Source: Deltaproteobacteria bacterium (lineage in GTDB: Bacteria; Desulfobacterota; BSN033; UBA1163). From it: a DNA stretch of 50,636 nt. The notes under the pieces are model-generated. The model saw nothing but the letters and a program-made list of their open reading frames with translations. It did not search any database and was not told the origin of the DNA. How positions within the stretch are numbered: the first letter of the stretch is position 1; every line of letters starts with the position of its first letter. The stretch is from positions 1 to 50,636 of the forward strand of contig JAGXTA010000067.1 of the NCBI GenBank assembly GCA_018333535.1, in the 5' to 3' direction. Both the position numbers and the translations under genes were made by a program. This document shows, in pieces, positions 5,191 through 14,739 of this stretch.

Positions 5191-5212
5191 ATCTTCCTCG
5201 AATTACAGTTAT

Positions 5213-5293
5213 TAGTTCGGAGTTCGTAGTTCGGAAGCAAATTCTTAATCTTTTTTTCTTTAGCTCCCAACTCCGAACTCATTACTCCGAACT
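5213..5293. repeat. AGTTCGG heptad tract between argG and leuS
   Basis: In the direction of transcription, just after the argG stop codon, come units AGTTCGG, AGTAATG, AGTTCGG, AGTTGGG. After an A-rich turn come CCGAACT, ACGAACT, CCGAACT, AATAACT, which are complementary. The period is 7 nt. The tract ends shortly before the GAGGAAG Shine-Dalgarno site of leuS. Confidence 0.8.
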
Positions 5294-5296
5294 TAT

Positions 5297-6499
5297 TTAC
5301 CCTCTCATCATTCTCCGGATTCTCAGCCTTAAAGCGTTCAGCTTGATAAATCCCTCCGCATCTTTCTGATTGTAAACAACATCCTTCTCGAAGGTTGCAA
5401 AAGCCCCATGATAGAGGGACTTTTCTGACTTGCGTCCGATCACGGTGCAATTCCCTTTGTAAAGCTTGAGGCGAACAGTGCCTGTCACATCTTTCTGCAT
5501 CTCATCAACAGCGTTCTTCAGGACTTCCATCTCCGGCGAAAACCAGTATCCATAGTAGATGAGTTCCGATATCTTCGGAATCAGGCTGTCTTTGAGGTGC
5601 ATCACCTCTCTATCCATCGTGATCGATTCGATTGCCCGGTGAGCAACATGGAGAATCGTCCCTCCCGGCGTTTCATAAACCCCTCTGGCTTTCATCCCGA
5701 CATAGCGATTTTCGACCATATCCACCCGCCCAACCCCGTTTTTGCCTCCAAGCTCATTCAGCCGAGCCAAGAGGTTTGCGGGCGAGAGGGATTTGCCATC
5801 CACACGGACCGGAATCCCGTCCTCGAAGTCGATTTCAACTATGGTGGGACGGTCTGGCGCCTTTTCAGGAGAAACGGAAAGCACGAACATATCTTCCGGC
5901 GGCTCAGACCATGGATCCTCGAGAATCCCGCCCTCGAAACTGATGTGCAGAAGGTTTCGGTCTGTTGAGTAAGGTTTCTCCTTGCTCACCGGAATGGGGA
6001 TGCCATTGTCCCGCGCATAAGCCATCAACTCCTCGCGCGATTTGAATTCCCATTGCCTCCAGGGTGAAATGACCTTGATATAGGGGTTGAGGGCGTAATA
6101 GGTCAGTTCAAATCGCACCTGGTCATTCCCTTTTCCAGTTGAACCGTGCGCCACGGCATCGGCTCCCTCGATCCGTGCAATCTCGACCTGCCTCTTTGCG
6201 ATCAGGGGTCTTGCAATGGAAGTCCCCATCAGGTAAGTTCCCTCATAGACGGCATTGGCTTTTAAGGCTGGAAAGACATAATCCCTTACAAACTCCTCCC
6301 GGAGGTCTTCGATATAGACCTTGCTTGCGCCTGTTGAGATCGCCTTCTCCTCCAGATGGTCCAGCTCTTCTGCCTGCCCGACATCCGCAGTAAAGGCAAT
6401 CACCTCGCATCCGAACTCATTCTTCAGCCATTTCACAATGATCGACGTATCCAGGCCGCCAGAATACGCCAGAACCACCTTCTTCACGTCGCCTTTCAT
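5297..6499 (-). CDS. argG: Argininosuccinate synthase
   Basis: A 400-aa argininosuccinate synthase. The ATP-pyrophosphatase P-loop [11 protein letters not shown] is at residues 10-20. The family signatures [13 protein letters not shown] and the substrate-binding [17 protein letters not shown] stretch follow. It joins citrulline and aspartate using ATP in arginine biosynthesis. With argD and argB upstream it forms an arg group; argF and argH are not in the window. The start ATG follows AGAGGAGG. Confidence 0.96.
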
Positions 6500-6514
6500 G
6501 GAAACCTCCTCTGT

Positions 6515-6611
6515 TCAAGTTCGGAGTTCGGAGTTTTGAGTTCGGAGATACAAATTGGGTTACTCCGAACTACCTGCCTGCCGGTAGGCAGGCGAACTCA
6601 TTACTCCGAAC
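6515..6611. repeat. AGTTCGG heptad tract with a nested GC palindrome (argD-argG spacer)
   Basis: The tract begins inside argD: its last codons AGT TCG GAG TAA are the repeat word, giving the C-terminus SSE and the stop. Then AGTAATG and AGTTCG follow, and a 20-nt GC palindrome (about 6571-6594, CCTGCCTGCCGGTAGGCAGG). The second arm carries complementary ACTCCGA and ACTCAAA heptads up to the argG Shine-Dalgarno site. The word is the same as in the argG-leuS spacer. Confidence 0.8.
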
Positions 6612-7809
6612 TTTTTATTCCTTTAAAGACTTTCTCCAGCGCAGATATCATCCGGTCCACTTCTTCTTCGGTCACAATCAATGGAGGCAAGAAACGAAGC
6701 ACCTTGTTCATTGTGCAGTTAATGAGAAACCCTCTCTTCATCATCTCTTTGACGATCTCTGCTCCGTCCATCTCCAACTCCATGCCGAGGATCAACCCTC
6801 TTCCCCGGACATCCTGCACAAAGGGAAATCTTTCCTTGACCTCCTGCAGCCTCGCAAGGAAATGCTCCCCGACCCTACGGCAATTCTCCAACATCCCTTC
6901 CTCTAAGATCGCATTCAGGGCGGCCACCCCTGCTGCCGTGGCTAAAAAATTTCCTCCAAAAGTGGAGGCATGATCTCCGGGCTCAAAACTTCTGGCAATC
7001 TCTTCTTTGATCAACAGGGCCCCGATGGGAACCCCTCCGGCCAATGATTTTGCCACCGTGAGCATATCCGGCTGTATATCCTCATGTTCATAGGCGAAGA
7101 GCTTTCCGGTCCTTCCCATCCCAACCTGAACCTCATCCAGAATGAGAAGAATTCCCTTCTCATCGCAGATTTCCCGGAGTCCTTTAAGATAACCCTCCGA
7201 AGGGATGTTCACTCCTCCCTCGCCCTGAATCGGCTCCAGAAGCACAGCGCAGGTCTTCGAACCAATCGCCTCTCTTACCGCCTTGAGGTTATTGAACGGG
7301 ACATATTTAAACCCCGGCATGAGAGGAGCATAGCCCTTGTGATACTTTGTCTGGCCGGTGGCGGTCAGAGTGGCAAGCGTCCTTCCATGAAAAGAGCGCT
7401 CCATGGTGATGATTTCGTATCGATCCTCGCCGGCTTTCTCTTTGGCATATTTTCTTGCGAGCTTCAGCGCTCCCTCATTGGCCTCTGCGCCGCTGTTGCA
7501 GAAAAAGACTTTGTCCGCAAAAGAGTGTTTACAGAGGAGGGACGCCAATTCGATCTGGGGTTCGATGTAGTAGAGATTTGAGACATGGATCAGCTTTTCA
7601 GCCTGCGCCTGAATTGCCCGAACGACCTTCGGATGACAGTGGCCCAGATTGCAGACCGCAAGCCCCGAAAAAAAATCAATATACTCTTTCCCCTCGATAT
7701 CCCAGATCCGGGTCCCCTTCCCTCTCACCGGAAGAATGGGAAAACGATTATAGGTATGGGCGATCACCTGTTCCGACAACATCATCAAGTTTTGAGAATC
7801 CATAACCAC
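6601..7809 (-). CDS. argD: Acetylornithine aminotransferase
   Basis: A 402-aa class III PLP-dependent aminotransferase. FSGLAVCNLGHCHPKV is near the N-terminus, NSGAEANEGALKLAR lines the PLP phosphate site, LILDEVQVGMGRTG carries the cofactor Asp, and TVAKSLAGGVPIGAL holds the Schiff-base Lys at about residue 254. It converts N-acetylglutamate semialdehyde to N-acetylornithine. It lies between argB and argG. The last three residues (SSE) and the stop codon are formed by an intergenic repeat word. MVMDSQ offers two starts two codons apart. Confidence 0.93.
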   Translation of the reverse strand: MVMDSQNLMMLSEQVIAHTYNRFPILPVRGKGTRIWDIEGKEYIDFFSGLAVCNLGHCHPKVVRAIQAQAEKLIHVSNLYYIEPQIELASLLCKHSFADKVFFCNSGAEANEGALKLARKYAKEKAGEDRYEIITMERSFHGRTLATLTATGQTKYHKGYAPLMPGFKYVPFNNLKAVREAIGSKTCAVLLEPIQGEGGVNIPSEGYLKGLREICDEKGILLILDEVQVGMGRTGKLFAYEHEDIQPDMLTVAKSLAGGVPIGALLIKEEIARSFEPGDHASTFGGNFLATAAGVAALNAILEEGMLENCRRVGEHFLARLQEVKERFPFVQDVRGRGLILGMELEMDGAEIVKEMMKRGFLINCTMNKVLRFLPPLIVTEEEVDRMISALEKVFKGIKSSE

Positions 7810-7813
7810 TCCA

Positions 7814-7910
7814 TTAACTGGAAAAATGGAATGTTGGAAGGATGGAATAATGGGTCAAATTCTAATAAAATAAACCCATCATTCCACTGTTCCAGTATTC
7901 CACTATTCCA
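7814..7910. repeat. TGGAATA octad tract between argB and argD
   Basis: On the plus strand, four exact 8-nt units at 7879-7910 (TCATTCCA, CTGTTCCA, GTATTCCA, CTATTCCA) face five complementary octads at 7814-7853 (TTAACTGG, AAAAATGG, AATGTTGG, AAGGATGG, AATAATGG). They are separated by a 25-nt centre. The argB stop codon (7903-7905) lies in the first unit. The tract ends at the argD ribosome-binding region. Confidence 0.85.
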
Positions 7911-12177: not shown

Positions 12178-12190
12178 AGAGATAATTTCT

Positions 12191-12335
12191 CAAAAAAACG
12201 GCCCTATCCCTTTTCGAGTCGAATCGACTTATTAGGAAGCCATCCTGCAGCAGGGGCAGGAAATAATTCAAATAAAGAATTTATGAATTTTCCTGAGTTC
12301 CTGGTTTCCTTATTGGGGATAGGGCTATTTTTTTG
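12191..12335. terminator. Large multi-hairpin element between convergent genes (bidirectional terminator or ncRNA)
   Basis: The 20-nt arms at 12191-12210 and 12316-12335 pair along almost their whole length (GCCCTATCCC with GGGATAGGGC plus A7/T7 runs). Both strands therefore end in a GC stem and T-run, as in intrinsic terminators. The 105-nt interior is also structured: AGTCG-AAT-CGACT (12217-12229), and a long arm pairing 12234-12242 with 12302-12310 and 12257-12269 with 12285-12295. It separates the dodecin gene from the convergent heptose kinase gene. A stand-alone small RNA cannot be excluded. Confidence 0.65.
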
Positions 12336-12346
12336 CAAGCTTTGGC

Positions 12347-13327
12347 CTATTTCAGCCGGACCTTCTCCTTCATCATTTTTATTAATTCCTTCTGACTAAC
12401 CGTTGCGGTCCCAACCTTTCCGACCACAATTCCAGCCGCATGGTTGGCCAGTTCCGCCGCCCTTCGGATGCTGGCTCCTGCCCCCAATGCAAGGGCCATC
12501 GTCCCGATGACCGTATCTCCGGCGCCGGTCACATCATAAACCTCCTTTGCCTCGGTCGGCACAAGAAGCGGTCTCTGATGAGGCTCAAAGACAGCCACCC
12601 CGTCCTCTCCCCGTGTGATCACCAGCGCATCACACTTCAACCTTTTCAAAAGATTCCTGCCCGCCCTGTCTAAAGAGATTTTATCCGTGATGGAAATTCT
12701 CGACGCAGAACTGGCTTCCCCTGTATTGGGCGTCACGACGGTTGCCCCTCTGTAAAAGAAGAAATTCTTTACCTTCGGATCGACCATCACAAATTTCTTT
12801 GCCTCTCTGGCCGCACGGATCGTATCGCGTATCATCCCTTTGGTGAGCAGGCCCTTCCCGTAATCGGAAAGGATGATTCCATCAAACCTCTTGATATTCT
12901 GTTTTAAATACTCAGAGAGGCTTCGAAGCGTGGAGGCCTTGGGGTGCCGGGTCATCTCCCGGTCGATCCGAACCAGTTGCTGGTGGTGGGCGATGATTCG
13001 TGTCTTGACGGTCGTCTGTCTTCCCGTCTCAATCAATATTCCGCCTCTATCGACTCCCATCTCGTCCAGCCTTTGAGTGACCTTCTGGCCCATCTCATCG
13101 TCGCCTAAAAGGCCGCACAGAGAAGCTTCTCCTCCGAGCGAGTGGATATTATTCACTACATTGGCCGCCCCTCCGAGGAGAAAGGTCTCTCTCTCCACCA
13201 CCACCACCGGCACAGGAGCCTCAGGCGAGATCCGGGAGACCCCTCCCCAGATGAACCGGTCTAACATGATATCCCCCACGACCAAAATCCTGACCCCTGA
13301 AAAATTCCTGATGATCTTTTCAAACAT
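12347..13327 (-). CDS. rfaE1: D-glycero-beta-D-manno-heptose-7-phosphate kinase (HldE kinase domain)
   Basis: A 326-aa PfkB/ribokinase-family kinase matching the N-terminal half of HldE/RfaE. It has VGDIMLDRFIWGGVSRISPEAP and GGAANVVNNIHSLGG near the N-terminus, and VTGAGDTVIG with the catalytic Asp near the C-terminus. It phosphorylates heptose 7-phosphate at C1 in ADP-heptose synthesis for the LPS inner core. The nucleotidyltransferase half found in E. coli HldE is absent, so a separate RfaE2 is expected elsewhere. Upstream is a sugar epimerase, joined by an octad spacer. Confidence 0.92.
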   Translation of the reverse strand: MFEKIIRNFSGVRILVVGDIMLDRFIWGGVSRISPEAPVPVVVVERETFLLGGAANVVNNIHSLGGEASLCGLLGDDEMGQKVTQRLDEMGVDRGGILIETGRQTTVKTRIIAHHQQLVRIDREMTRHPKASTLRSLSEYLKQNIKRFDGIILSDYGKGLLTKGMIRDTIRAAREAKKFVMVDPKVKNFFFYRGATVVTPNTGEASSASRISITDKISLDRAGRNLLKRLKCDALVITRGEDGVAVFEPHQRPLLVPTEAKEVYDVTGAGDTVIGTMALALGAGASIRRAAELANHAAGIVVGKVGTATVSQKELIKMMKEKVRLK

Positions 13328-13336
13328 CGATCACTC

Positions 13337-13416
13337 CATTAGTCGATTGGTCTATTCGTCACATAGTCTTATGGTCTTTTGACCATCCGACGATCCGACT
13401 ATATGACTATTTGACT
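13337..13416. repeat. Perfect 5+5 octad hairpin tract between the epimerase and rfaE1
   Basis: Ten contiguous 8-nt units occupy exactly 80 bp. In the transcribed direction they are AGTCAAAT, AGTCATAT, AGTCGGAT, CGTCGGAT, GGTCAAAA, then GACCATAA, GACTATGT, GACGAATA, GACCAATC, GACTAATG. Each xGTC pairs with a GACx in the other arm. The stop codon of the epimerase (13407-13409) lies in the first units and the rfaE1 GGAG follows the last one. Confidence 0.9.
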
Positions 13417-14351
13417 TTATTTTTAAAAAACTCCACCGTTCTTCTAAGCCCCTCCTCAATTCCAACCCTTGGATCATAATTCAATATCGCTTTTCCCTTT
13501 TTGATGTCTGCCAGCGAGTGTCTGGGCTCTCCTTTTCTGGGCTCCTCATAAAGAGGAGGGATGTGCGAGCCGATAATATCCTGAAGGATCTTAAGCAGCT
13601 GGTTTAAAGATACCCTCTTCCCGCAGGCGACATTGACCGCCTCTCCCTGAGTTCGCTCCGCATTCATCGCAAGAAGATTGGCGTGGACCACATTGTCGAT
13701 ATATGTGAAGTCCCGGGACTGTTCCCCATCTCCGAAGATGACCGGAGCACGGACCGAGATAAGGGCATCGATAAACCTCGGGATGACAGCTGAATAAATG
13801 GAATTGGGATCCTGTTTCGGACCAAAGATATTAAAATATCTCAGCGAGATCGTCTCCAACCCGTAAAGTTGAAAAAAGAGCCGGCAATACTGCTCTCCGA
13901 TAAACTTCTGCAAGGCATAGGGCGAAAGAGGATTGGGGACCATCTCCTCTTTTTTGGGAAGGGTCGGAGTATCCCCATAGGCTGAGGACGAGGCCGCATA
14001 GATCACCCGCCTCACCCCTGCATCTCTCGCCGCCATTAGGATATTTAAGGTCCCCCCTACATTAGCTTGATTTGAAGACATCGGATCCTCAACCGATCGC
14101 TGGACCGATGGAAGGGCTGCCTGATGAAAAACATATTCGATCCCCTCCACGGCCTTCTGGCAGGTGATCAGGTCACAGATGTCCCCTTCGATCATCTCAA
14201 GGAAGGGATAAGCCTCCTCAAAGACTAAATTCTCCCTCTTCCCGGTAGATAAATTATCGAGCACCCGAACCTGATGCCCCGACTTGAGCAATGCCTCCGT
14301 CAGATTCGACCCAATAAACCCCGCTCCTCCTGTCACCAATACCTTCGACAT
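13407..14351 (-). CDS. NAD-dependent UDP-sugar epimerase (WbpP/TviC-like)
   Basis: A 314-aa extended SDR. The Rossmann motif TGGAGFIGSNL is at residues 7-17. The catalytic region is AASSSAYGD...SPYALQK (Ser, YxxxK), followed by LRYFNIFGPKQDPNSIYSAVIP, characteristic of UDP-GlcNAc/UDP-Glc 4-epimerases of the WbpP group. It probably interconverts UDP-GlcNAc and UDP-GalNAc (or uronates) for surface polysaccharide. I start at the ATG at 14349-14351, after GAGGAGAG; the 56 residues encoded upstream look noncoding. The last codons and stop are repeat words. Confidence 0.85.
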   Translation of the reverse strand: MSKVLVTGGAGFIGSNLTEALLKSGHQVRVLDNLSTGKRENLVFEEAYPFLEMIEGDICDLITCQKAVEGIEYVFHQAALPSVQRSVEDPMSSNQANVGGTLNILMAARDAGVRRVIYAASSSAYGDTPTLPKKEEMVPNPLSPYALQKFIGEQYCRLFFQLYGLETISLRYFNIFGPKQDPNSIYSAVIPRFIDALISVRAPVIFGDGEQSRDFTYIDNVVHANLLAMNAERTQGEAVNVACGKRVSLNQLLKILQDIIGSHIPPLYEEPRKGEPRHSLADIKKGKAILNYDPRVGIEEGLRRTVEFFKNKVK

Positions 14352-14369
14352 ACTCTCCTCATCTTTTTT

Positions 14370-14406
14370 AGGGGGACAGTCCCTCTCAGCTAAAGGGACT
14401 GTCCCC
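14370..14406. repeat. GGGACAGTCCCT inverted repeat
   Basis: A 13-bp inverted repeat, GGGGACAGTCCCT and AGGGACTGTCCCC, with a short 9-nt loop. It lies in the spacer between the 109-aa hypothetical gene and the epimerase. The words are self-complementary GGGACAGTCCC palindromes, another intergenic repeat type. No T-run follows on either strand, so it is not a convincing terminator. Confidence 0.65.
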
Positions 14407-14409
14407 TTA

Positions 14410-14739
14410 TTACCTACCTTTTCGGCTGTAAAGGGCAAAATAGAAGAAATAACGCTCAATCTCCTGTAATTGAGAGTTATATTCCTCCCCGCCCAGAACC
14501 GCATCACAAAAAACCTCATGTAACCGGGTAATTTCTTTTAGCCGATGATGCCACCTAAGATCAGACATCGTCAAATAGAAGAGTTCCAATGCCCTTTCCA
14601 CCGAAGACCAGAAGAGCTTCTCATCTCTTCCCTGCCATCGAATGGCCCTGCTGACCTCGCTTCCGATATTTGCGAATTGCTCCGCCAGGGAAAGCTTCTG
14701 CCATCCCCCTTCGGATAACTCTTTGTGTTGAAATTTCAT
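14410..14739 (-). CDS. Small helical protein of unknown function
   Basis: A 109-aa protein starting MKFQHKELSEGGWQKLSL. I recognise it only as a recurrent small helical family (conserved SLAEQFANIGSEVSRAI, ERALELFYLTMSD, LKEITRLHEVF, YFFYFAL) without known function. It looks all-alpha, possibly a four-helix bundle. It lies 1 bp from the DUF5674 gene upstream and is surely co-expressed with it. The pair sits in a stretch of small accessory cassettes, so a toxin-antitoxin-like role is possible but unsupported. Confidence 0.7.
   Translation of the reverse strand: MKFQHKELSEGGWQKLSLAEQFANIGSEVSRAIRWQGRDEKLFWSSVERALELFYLTMSDLRWHHRLKEITRLHEVFCDAVLGGEEYNSQLQEIERYFFYFALYSRKGR

Follow-up and report, generated by a model that had tools for sequence, protein, structure and literature searches.

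The window analysed here, a stretch of 50,636 nucleotides, belongs to G000, a 4.39-Mb draft genome that includes the window contig; the other genomes compared are relatives, sampled by regions, and those nearest to G000 are uncultured Thermodesulfobacteriota/Deltaproteobacteria MAGs. Within the window, the spacer between an epimerase gene and the kinase gene downstream of it is filled by an inverted array of 8-nucleotide units (octads). The features of this locus are the following.

12347 to 13327, minus strand: PfkB-family kinase (HldE/RfaE kinase-like), the downstream gene
13337 to 13376, no strand assigned: left arm of the array, read from the sequence, 0 such runs expected by chance, with GTC cores at 13342-13344, 13350-13352, 13358-13360, 13366-13368 and 13374-13376
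13377 to 13416, no strand assigned: right arm of the array, read from the sequence, with GAC cores at 13381-13383, 13389-13391, 13397-13399, 13405-13407 and 13413-13415
13407 to 13409, minus strand: epimerase stop codon TAG, which the array provides (AAA TAG TC)
13407 to 14519, minus strand: NAD-dependent epimerase/dehydratase (PF01370), the upstream gene

An earlier note, made from the letters of this DNA, had described ten exact, contiguous octads in register that cover the epimerase stop codon. The sequence of positions 13337 to 13416 confirms this description: ten octads run end to end with zero indels, five with a GTC core (CATTAGTC GATTGGTC TATTCGTC ACATAGTC TTATGGTC) and five with a GAC core (TTTTGACC ATCCGACG ATCCGACT ATATGACT ATTTGACT), the inner cores are separated by TTTT (13377-13380), and the stop codon, TAG at 13409-13407, lies inside the array. 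The start of the kinase gene and a Shine-Dalgarno-like GGAG (13334-13337) adjoin the left arm at its outer end. Each arm has five consecutive cores at a period of 8, a run that never arose in 100 dinucleotide shuffles of the entire window; the array is genuine, and chance is excluded. The note had also counted five AGTC and five GAC units. The GTC/GAC core holds, but AGTC occurs in just two units of the left arm, the other three being GGTC, CGTC, and GGTC, and the fixed core is therefore GTC rather than AGTC. Nor are positions 5 to 8 the variable ones, as the note had worded it: the unit in the window is ATNGTCNN, in which GTC is fixed, the AT two bases downstream is mostly fixed, and the freely varying positions are the one base 5' of GTC and the two bases 3' of it.

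The array belongs to a family of dispersed, non-coding, intergenic repeats, apparently undescribed, in an uncultured bacterial lineage. Each copy is built from an arm of 4 to 6 [ATN]GTC[NN] units facing an arm of 4 to 6 inverted units. There are approximately 17 array copies in G000, and further copies occur in sister species. The pattern of GTCNNATN three times plus GTC matched 36 times in G000, 28 times in G002, 43 times in G006, 1 to 7 times in each of five sister genomes, and 4 times in G013, a member of another genus of the same family; it was absent from G003 and G008, and the reversed-pattern control gave 0 to 5 matches per genome. Outside the source family, AGTC arrays were found in only one other family of the phylum sample (f21), in four genomes, and the better f21 arrays have facing arms and lie close to stop codons, as in the family of G000. 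A scan of viral contigs with a 15-base pattern returned 41 scattered matches, judged to be near chance for that collection. Open-licence papers on intergenic short-unit inverted arrays, whose silence is weak evidence, described nothing of this anatomy, and a search of literature text for the repeat words gave nothing but chance-like matches to one short word.

The 45 two-armed hairpins have 3 to 7 units per arm, and the GTC arm precedes the GAC arm in every one (45/45). Gap lengths between their inner cores form clusters at 3, 11, and 19 nt; the gap of the window copy is 4 nt. The outer ends of the arrays are sharp, with a match of 0.21 (about chance) beyond the outermost perfect unit and no degenerate units, and the innermost slots are decayed (match 0.63). 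At three loci of G006 (L124, L129, and L132), AGTC arrays lie next to GTTCGGAG sequence, and at L124 the AGTC arms are enclosed by the GTTCGGAG arms.

The placement of the arrays relative to genes is highly uneven: co-directional genes flank 49 of them, convergent genes 9, and divergent genes 1, a depletion of divergent spacers relative to spacers at large (p = 0.017). Arrays start at or close to the upstream stop codon. At 23 of the 57 junctions between an array and a gene, the array itself supplies this codon as TAG(TC), and TAG is over-represented among the stops at arrays (31/57 versus 96/365, p = 4e-5). In the folD set, the array also forms the bases 5' of the next start codon, supplying AGGA. 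The ileS gene of G000 (L101, around 3899) has CAG in place of the TAG of its sister species, and its frame would continue through the array to a TAA.

To compare rates of change among the letters of the unit, orthologs of the G000 array junctions were found by the upstream protein only, and eight junctions were read in up to nine sister genomes. Among same-family orthologous arrays, differences from G000 were seen at 20 of 364 GTC positions (5.5%), 49 of 285 AT positions (17%), 30 of 120 positions preceding GTC (N1; 25%), and 61 of 236 NN positions (26%); the corresponding values are 323 of 720 (45%) for four-fold sites and 195 of 3180 (6.1%) for codon positions 1 and 2. The difference between GTC and NN has a p value of 2e-12, which is optimistic because the compared pairs all share G000 and are not independent. 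Because the G000 loci were picked for intact cores, core divergence is underestimated in the G000 lineage only; the comparison species were not picked by core integrity at every locus. Even with every core change in the G000 lineage concealed, equal rates would predict a GTC divergence of roughly half that of NN (13%), whereas 5.5% was observed, and the contrast between GTC and NN is larger than this selection bias permits. A separate comparison, in which both members were pattern-chosen, ranked the classes alike at the extremes, with GTC diverging least and four-fold sites most.

The fixed letters of the arrays show roughly the degree of conservation seen at protein-coding positions. Indels between orthologous arrays are mostly of 8 or 16 nt, that is, of whole octads, and given divergences of 5.5% (GTC), 26% (NN), and 45% (four-fold sites), it follows that both sequence and phase are conserved. 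The suggestion in the earlier note of constraint on the phase and on the GTC core is thus borne out by orthologous arrays elsewhere, and the clustering of loop lengths at 3+8k also favours a constraint on phase. Some array loci have been inherited vertically. The AGTC array at the exonuclease gene (L149:4529-4640, L247) looks letter-for-letter identical in G000 and G004, two species in which roughly one in three four-fold sites differs elsewhere (12/37 in relA) but only 2/45 in the exonuclease gene itself.

At the window copy, the order of the epimerase and kinase genes is retained in the genus, and no sister species has an AGTC-type array in that spacer: there is a TGATNAT-type run with a 7-nt unit in G007 and G003, a GGGGCGATTCATGAATCGCCCC-type palindrome in G004 and G009, and GTCATTCC-type elements in G007 and G006. 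Because the sister spacers differ completely, the array is lineage-specific at this locus. Spacers of sister genomes (L005, L006) and another part of G000 (L166) contain elements of the GTCATTCC type.

The AGTC family is accompanied by others. In an unbiased 339-kb sample of G000, 24 of 161 spacers had facing repeated 5-mers at p ≤ 0.02 versus 3 expected, some of the 24 being ordinary palindromes or A+T runs. The short-period families that recurred in the G000 sample were TGGAANNN, GTTCGGAG, ACGAATNN, ATCAGGNN, and CGGAATN. Elements of this kind in the window, for which no strand is assigned, are the following.

1840 to 1913: ACGAATNN element with a 9-10 nt period, behind a lipoprotein-like gene (1913-2425)
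5209 to 5297: GTTCGGAG element, behind an argG-like gene
6511 to 6612: GTTCGGAG element, between argD-like and argG-like genes
7811 to 7910: TGGAANNN octad element, between argB-like and argD-like genes

One arm of the GTTCGGAG element at 6511 to 6612 is interrupted by a TGCCTACCGGCAGGCAGGTA palindrome (window 6572-6591), an element within an element. Octads of the TGGAANNN type number 82 in G000, 153 in G003, 110 in G006, and 107 in G013, and the reversed TGGAANNN pattern had 0 matches in 40 of 40 genomes. The TGGAA (TGGAANNN) hairpins of G003 have a single arm order (22/22), and the array mostly starts ≤18 nt from the stop codon. The loop-phase rule of the AGTC arrays fails for TGGAA arrays, the loops of which span 18 to 101 nt with no clear phase. 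Facing NNN letters in TGGAA arrays match less often than chance at one position (0.11 versus 0.30 over 46 pairs); this was a single comparison among several, and we place no weight on it. Across families we have the impression that the purine-rich arm comes first (23 versus 6 spacers), and we leave it as an impression because TGGAA dominates this count.

Orthologous junctions differ in the family that they carry. At the ilvE junction, G000, G006, and G002 have AGTC arrays, G004 has a CGGAAT-type array, G007 and G001 have TGGAANNN, and G008 has a plain spacer. The junction of the 5'-3' exonuclease gene holds AGTC arrays in G000, G004, and G006, hybrid CGGATTT + TGGAAT arms in G002, GTAACG-type sequence in G001, G005, and G009, and nine nucleotides in G008. 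At the folD junction there are AGTC arrays in G000, G006, G002, and G001, a half-array in G007, GTTCGGAG in G004 and G003, a palindrome in G009, and none of these types in G005 and G008. This comparison shows that families replace one another at permissive junctions; such turnover proves no need for a hairpin, because the junctions were selected by their G000 array and have no matched baseline.

From the pattern of conservation and dispersal, the array is probably a REP-like dispersed intergenic element, the octads of which would be sequence-specific sites for a putative factor, with mobility and function both putative. Its arms would be phased runs of short sites (ATNGTCNN, at an 8-nt period here) facing inward, recognised as sequence by a factor present in array-bearing genomes. 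Reading of the octad as sequence is suggested by the fixed word, the freer spacer letters, the fixed period, and strand symmetry; because core variation is strand-symmetric, recognition would most likely be of DNA.

REPs of the GTAG/CGTC kind are single palindromes of 20 to 40 bp that carry an unpaired tag, GTAG or CGTC, at one of their ends (Di Nocera et al. 2013, PMC3733652), and GTAG REPs sit at the 3' ends of genes and also donate TAG stops (PMC3733652). The octad arrays resemble REPs, BIMEs, and REPINs (PMC3733652) in being dispersed and intergenic, in favouring unidirectional or convergent spacers and the 3' ends of genes, in providing TAG stops (TAGTC), and in comprising several families and inverted pairs, and the counts of placement and of own stops given above agree with this likeness. 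They differ from REPs in structure, being approximately 80 to 100 bp long with multi-octad arms, a fixed core plus free letters, and no common tag seen, and they differ from RAYT-associated REPs in flanking, no AGTC array being found around 16 Y1/RAYT-like genes of G000. Because the tag, the palindrome size, and the RAYT flanking are not those of GTAG/CGTC REPs, the octad array is REP-like but falls outside that group as defined. MITEs are likewise small non-coding elements with inverted ends that are scattered between genes, but octad copies share only core and phase, and long identical terminal repeats, target-site duplications, and an autonomous partner, the last two being marks of a MITE, were not seen among the loci read. 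Cyanobacterial STRR heptamer arrays are exact direct repeats of variable number. Octad arrays are like STRRs and simple sequence repeats in having tandem spacer units of 7 to 8 nt and differ from them in the unlike spacer letters of neighbouring units and in the inverted arms. TAACTGA repeats, known from Beggiatoaceae, Cyanobacteria, and Bacteroidetes, are exact 7-nt direct repeats (MacGregor 2015, PMC4679880), placed for the most part immediately 5' of start codons, in a single orientation, with one inverted case reported; some overlap stop codons, and they contain stops in all three frames (PMC4679880). They also have short units at many intergenic loci with a patchy distribution across lineages, whereas octad arrays have free positions, facing arms, and a placement at gene 3' ends.

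A more specific version of this likeness, in which the array is a REP-type element moved by a RAYT/Y1 (HUH) transposase and the octad families are its diverged REP classes, we consider unlikely. Its placement and TAG donation are those of GTAG REPs; Y1/RAYT-like matches are unusually many in G000 (25) and in G140 (32), the AGTC-richest f21 genome, and G008, of which a 400-kb sample contained no such arrays, has no Y1 transposase match. Y1 counts and array counts are correlated over 18 genomes (Spearman 0.65), but the correlation within the genus is 0.35 and non-significant, G001 combines a single Y1 match with several array families, and G018 has eight matches without TGGAA arrays. The 58 kb surrounding 16 RAYT-like genes of G000 contain no AGTC array, other families are not enriched there, and no GTAG-tagged palindrome of 20 to 40 bp was seen.

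Another explanation, to which we give little credence, is a conserved intercistronic RNA hairpin, with selection acting on facing-octad pairing and on the period for mRNA stability or translation control. Facing cores do pair, arrays lie 3' of stop codons in co-directional spacers, and ribosome stalling has been reported for REPs ≤15 nt from a stop codon (PMC12306157). The predicted RNA fold of the window copy (-27.7 kcal/mol, z -2.67) is modestly better than those of shuffles and includes a 10-versus-2 internal loop that may be read as out-of-register pairing by one octad. However, the variable letters do not follow the pairing: NN identity in the unit frame, which is equivalent to complementarity, is 0.29 for facing units, 0.296 among unrelated hairpins, and 0.29 for neighbours within an arm. 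The 80-bp hairpin of the earlier note therefore survives as a pair of inverted arms and not as a single good hairpin, since facing variable pairs are mostly mismatched. In the folD alignment of four sequences, 0 pairs had changed on both sides in either of two registers; TAGCC and GGCTA in the folD array of G000, which looked like a compensatory pair, fit only in the register with a 19-nt loop. Core changes that keep a G-U pair on the transcribed strand are no more frequent than those that break it (8:8 for AGTC, 5:4 for TGGAA, and 4:6 in another count), core changes being so few that these pairing and G-U tests have limited power. In addition, a single core sequence is fixed across loci, which pairing alone does not require, sister species have no such element at the epimerase-kinase locus, and the 400-kb sample of G008 contains no such arrays. 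Beyond what the inverted arms themselves imply, pairing finds no support, and neither does the proposal of the earlier note that pairing is constrained. No Rfam family matched in the window. An intrinsic terminator, which would have a G+C-rich stem and then a U-run on the transcribed strand, was also considered and rejected, as the stem is A+T-rich with internal loops and is followed by GGAGTGATCGATG on the operon strand, with no U-run.

A local microsatellite, in which slippage and hairpin-templated copying would have built a functionless octad palindrome in situ, is highly improbable: indels between orthologs are mostly whole octads and an inverted arm could come from template switching, but neighbouring NN letters are not shared (0.29 versus 0.296 among unrelated copies), which argues, in agreement with the earlier note, against whole-unit copying, one core recurs both in a second family of the phylum and at approximately 17 loci unrelated to one another, that core is far more conserved than four-fold sites, and arm order is constant.

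Returning to REP-like elements read by a putative factor, such elements would accumulate in permissive operon junctions, where families would have replaced or pre-empted one another. We infer mobility from dispersal and patchy distribution; among the loci read, no filled and empty sites with clean boundaries and no target duplication were seen, the spacers being too different between species. Effects on neighbouring genes, such as the stalling of terminating ribosomes or the formation of mRNA ends, would be secondary and are suggested as possibilities by analogy with REPs. More tentatively, the families AGTC, TGGAA, GTTCGGAG, ACGAAT, ATCAGG, and CGGAAT might together form a new anatomical class of parallel families, defined by facing arms of phased 7-9 nt words with a fixed core and free spacer letters, each family having its own putative trans-acting protein. 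Their elements would compete for operon junctions and supply stop codons and ribosome-binding bases; we regard this as conceivable but rather doubtful. Dispersed palindromic repeats are usually seen as selfish DNA or as RNA stems, whereas here the conserved quantity is a phased word. Two questions thereby become testable in genomes of uncultured Thermodesulfobacteriota: which factor reads the octads, and whether operon junctions serve as a shared niche for competing repeat families.

Two further features of the window deserve mention. Positions 2460-2560 hold a distinct repeat element (GTCATTCCTGCGCAAGCAGGAATCCAG ... GGATTCCCG..GGGAATGAC). At 12190-12335, 3' of the kinase gene, GGCCCTATCCC faces GGGGATAGGGC in a terminator-like stem with a T-run, and a stem resembling it is kept in sister genomes (e.g., L012, L013, and L017).
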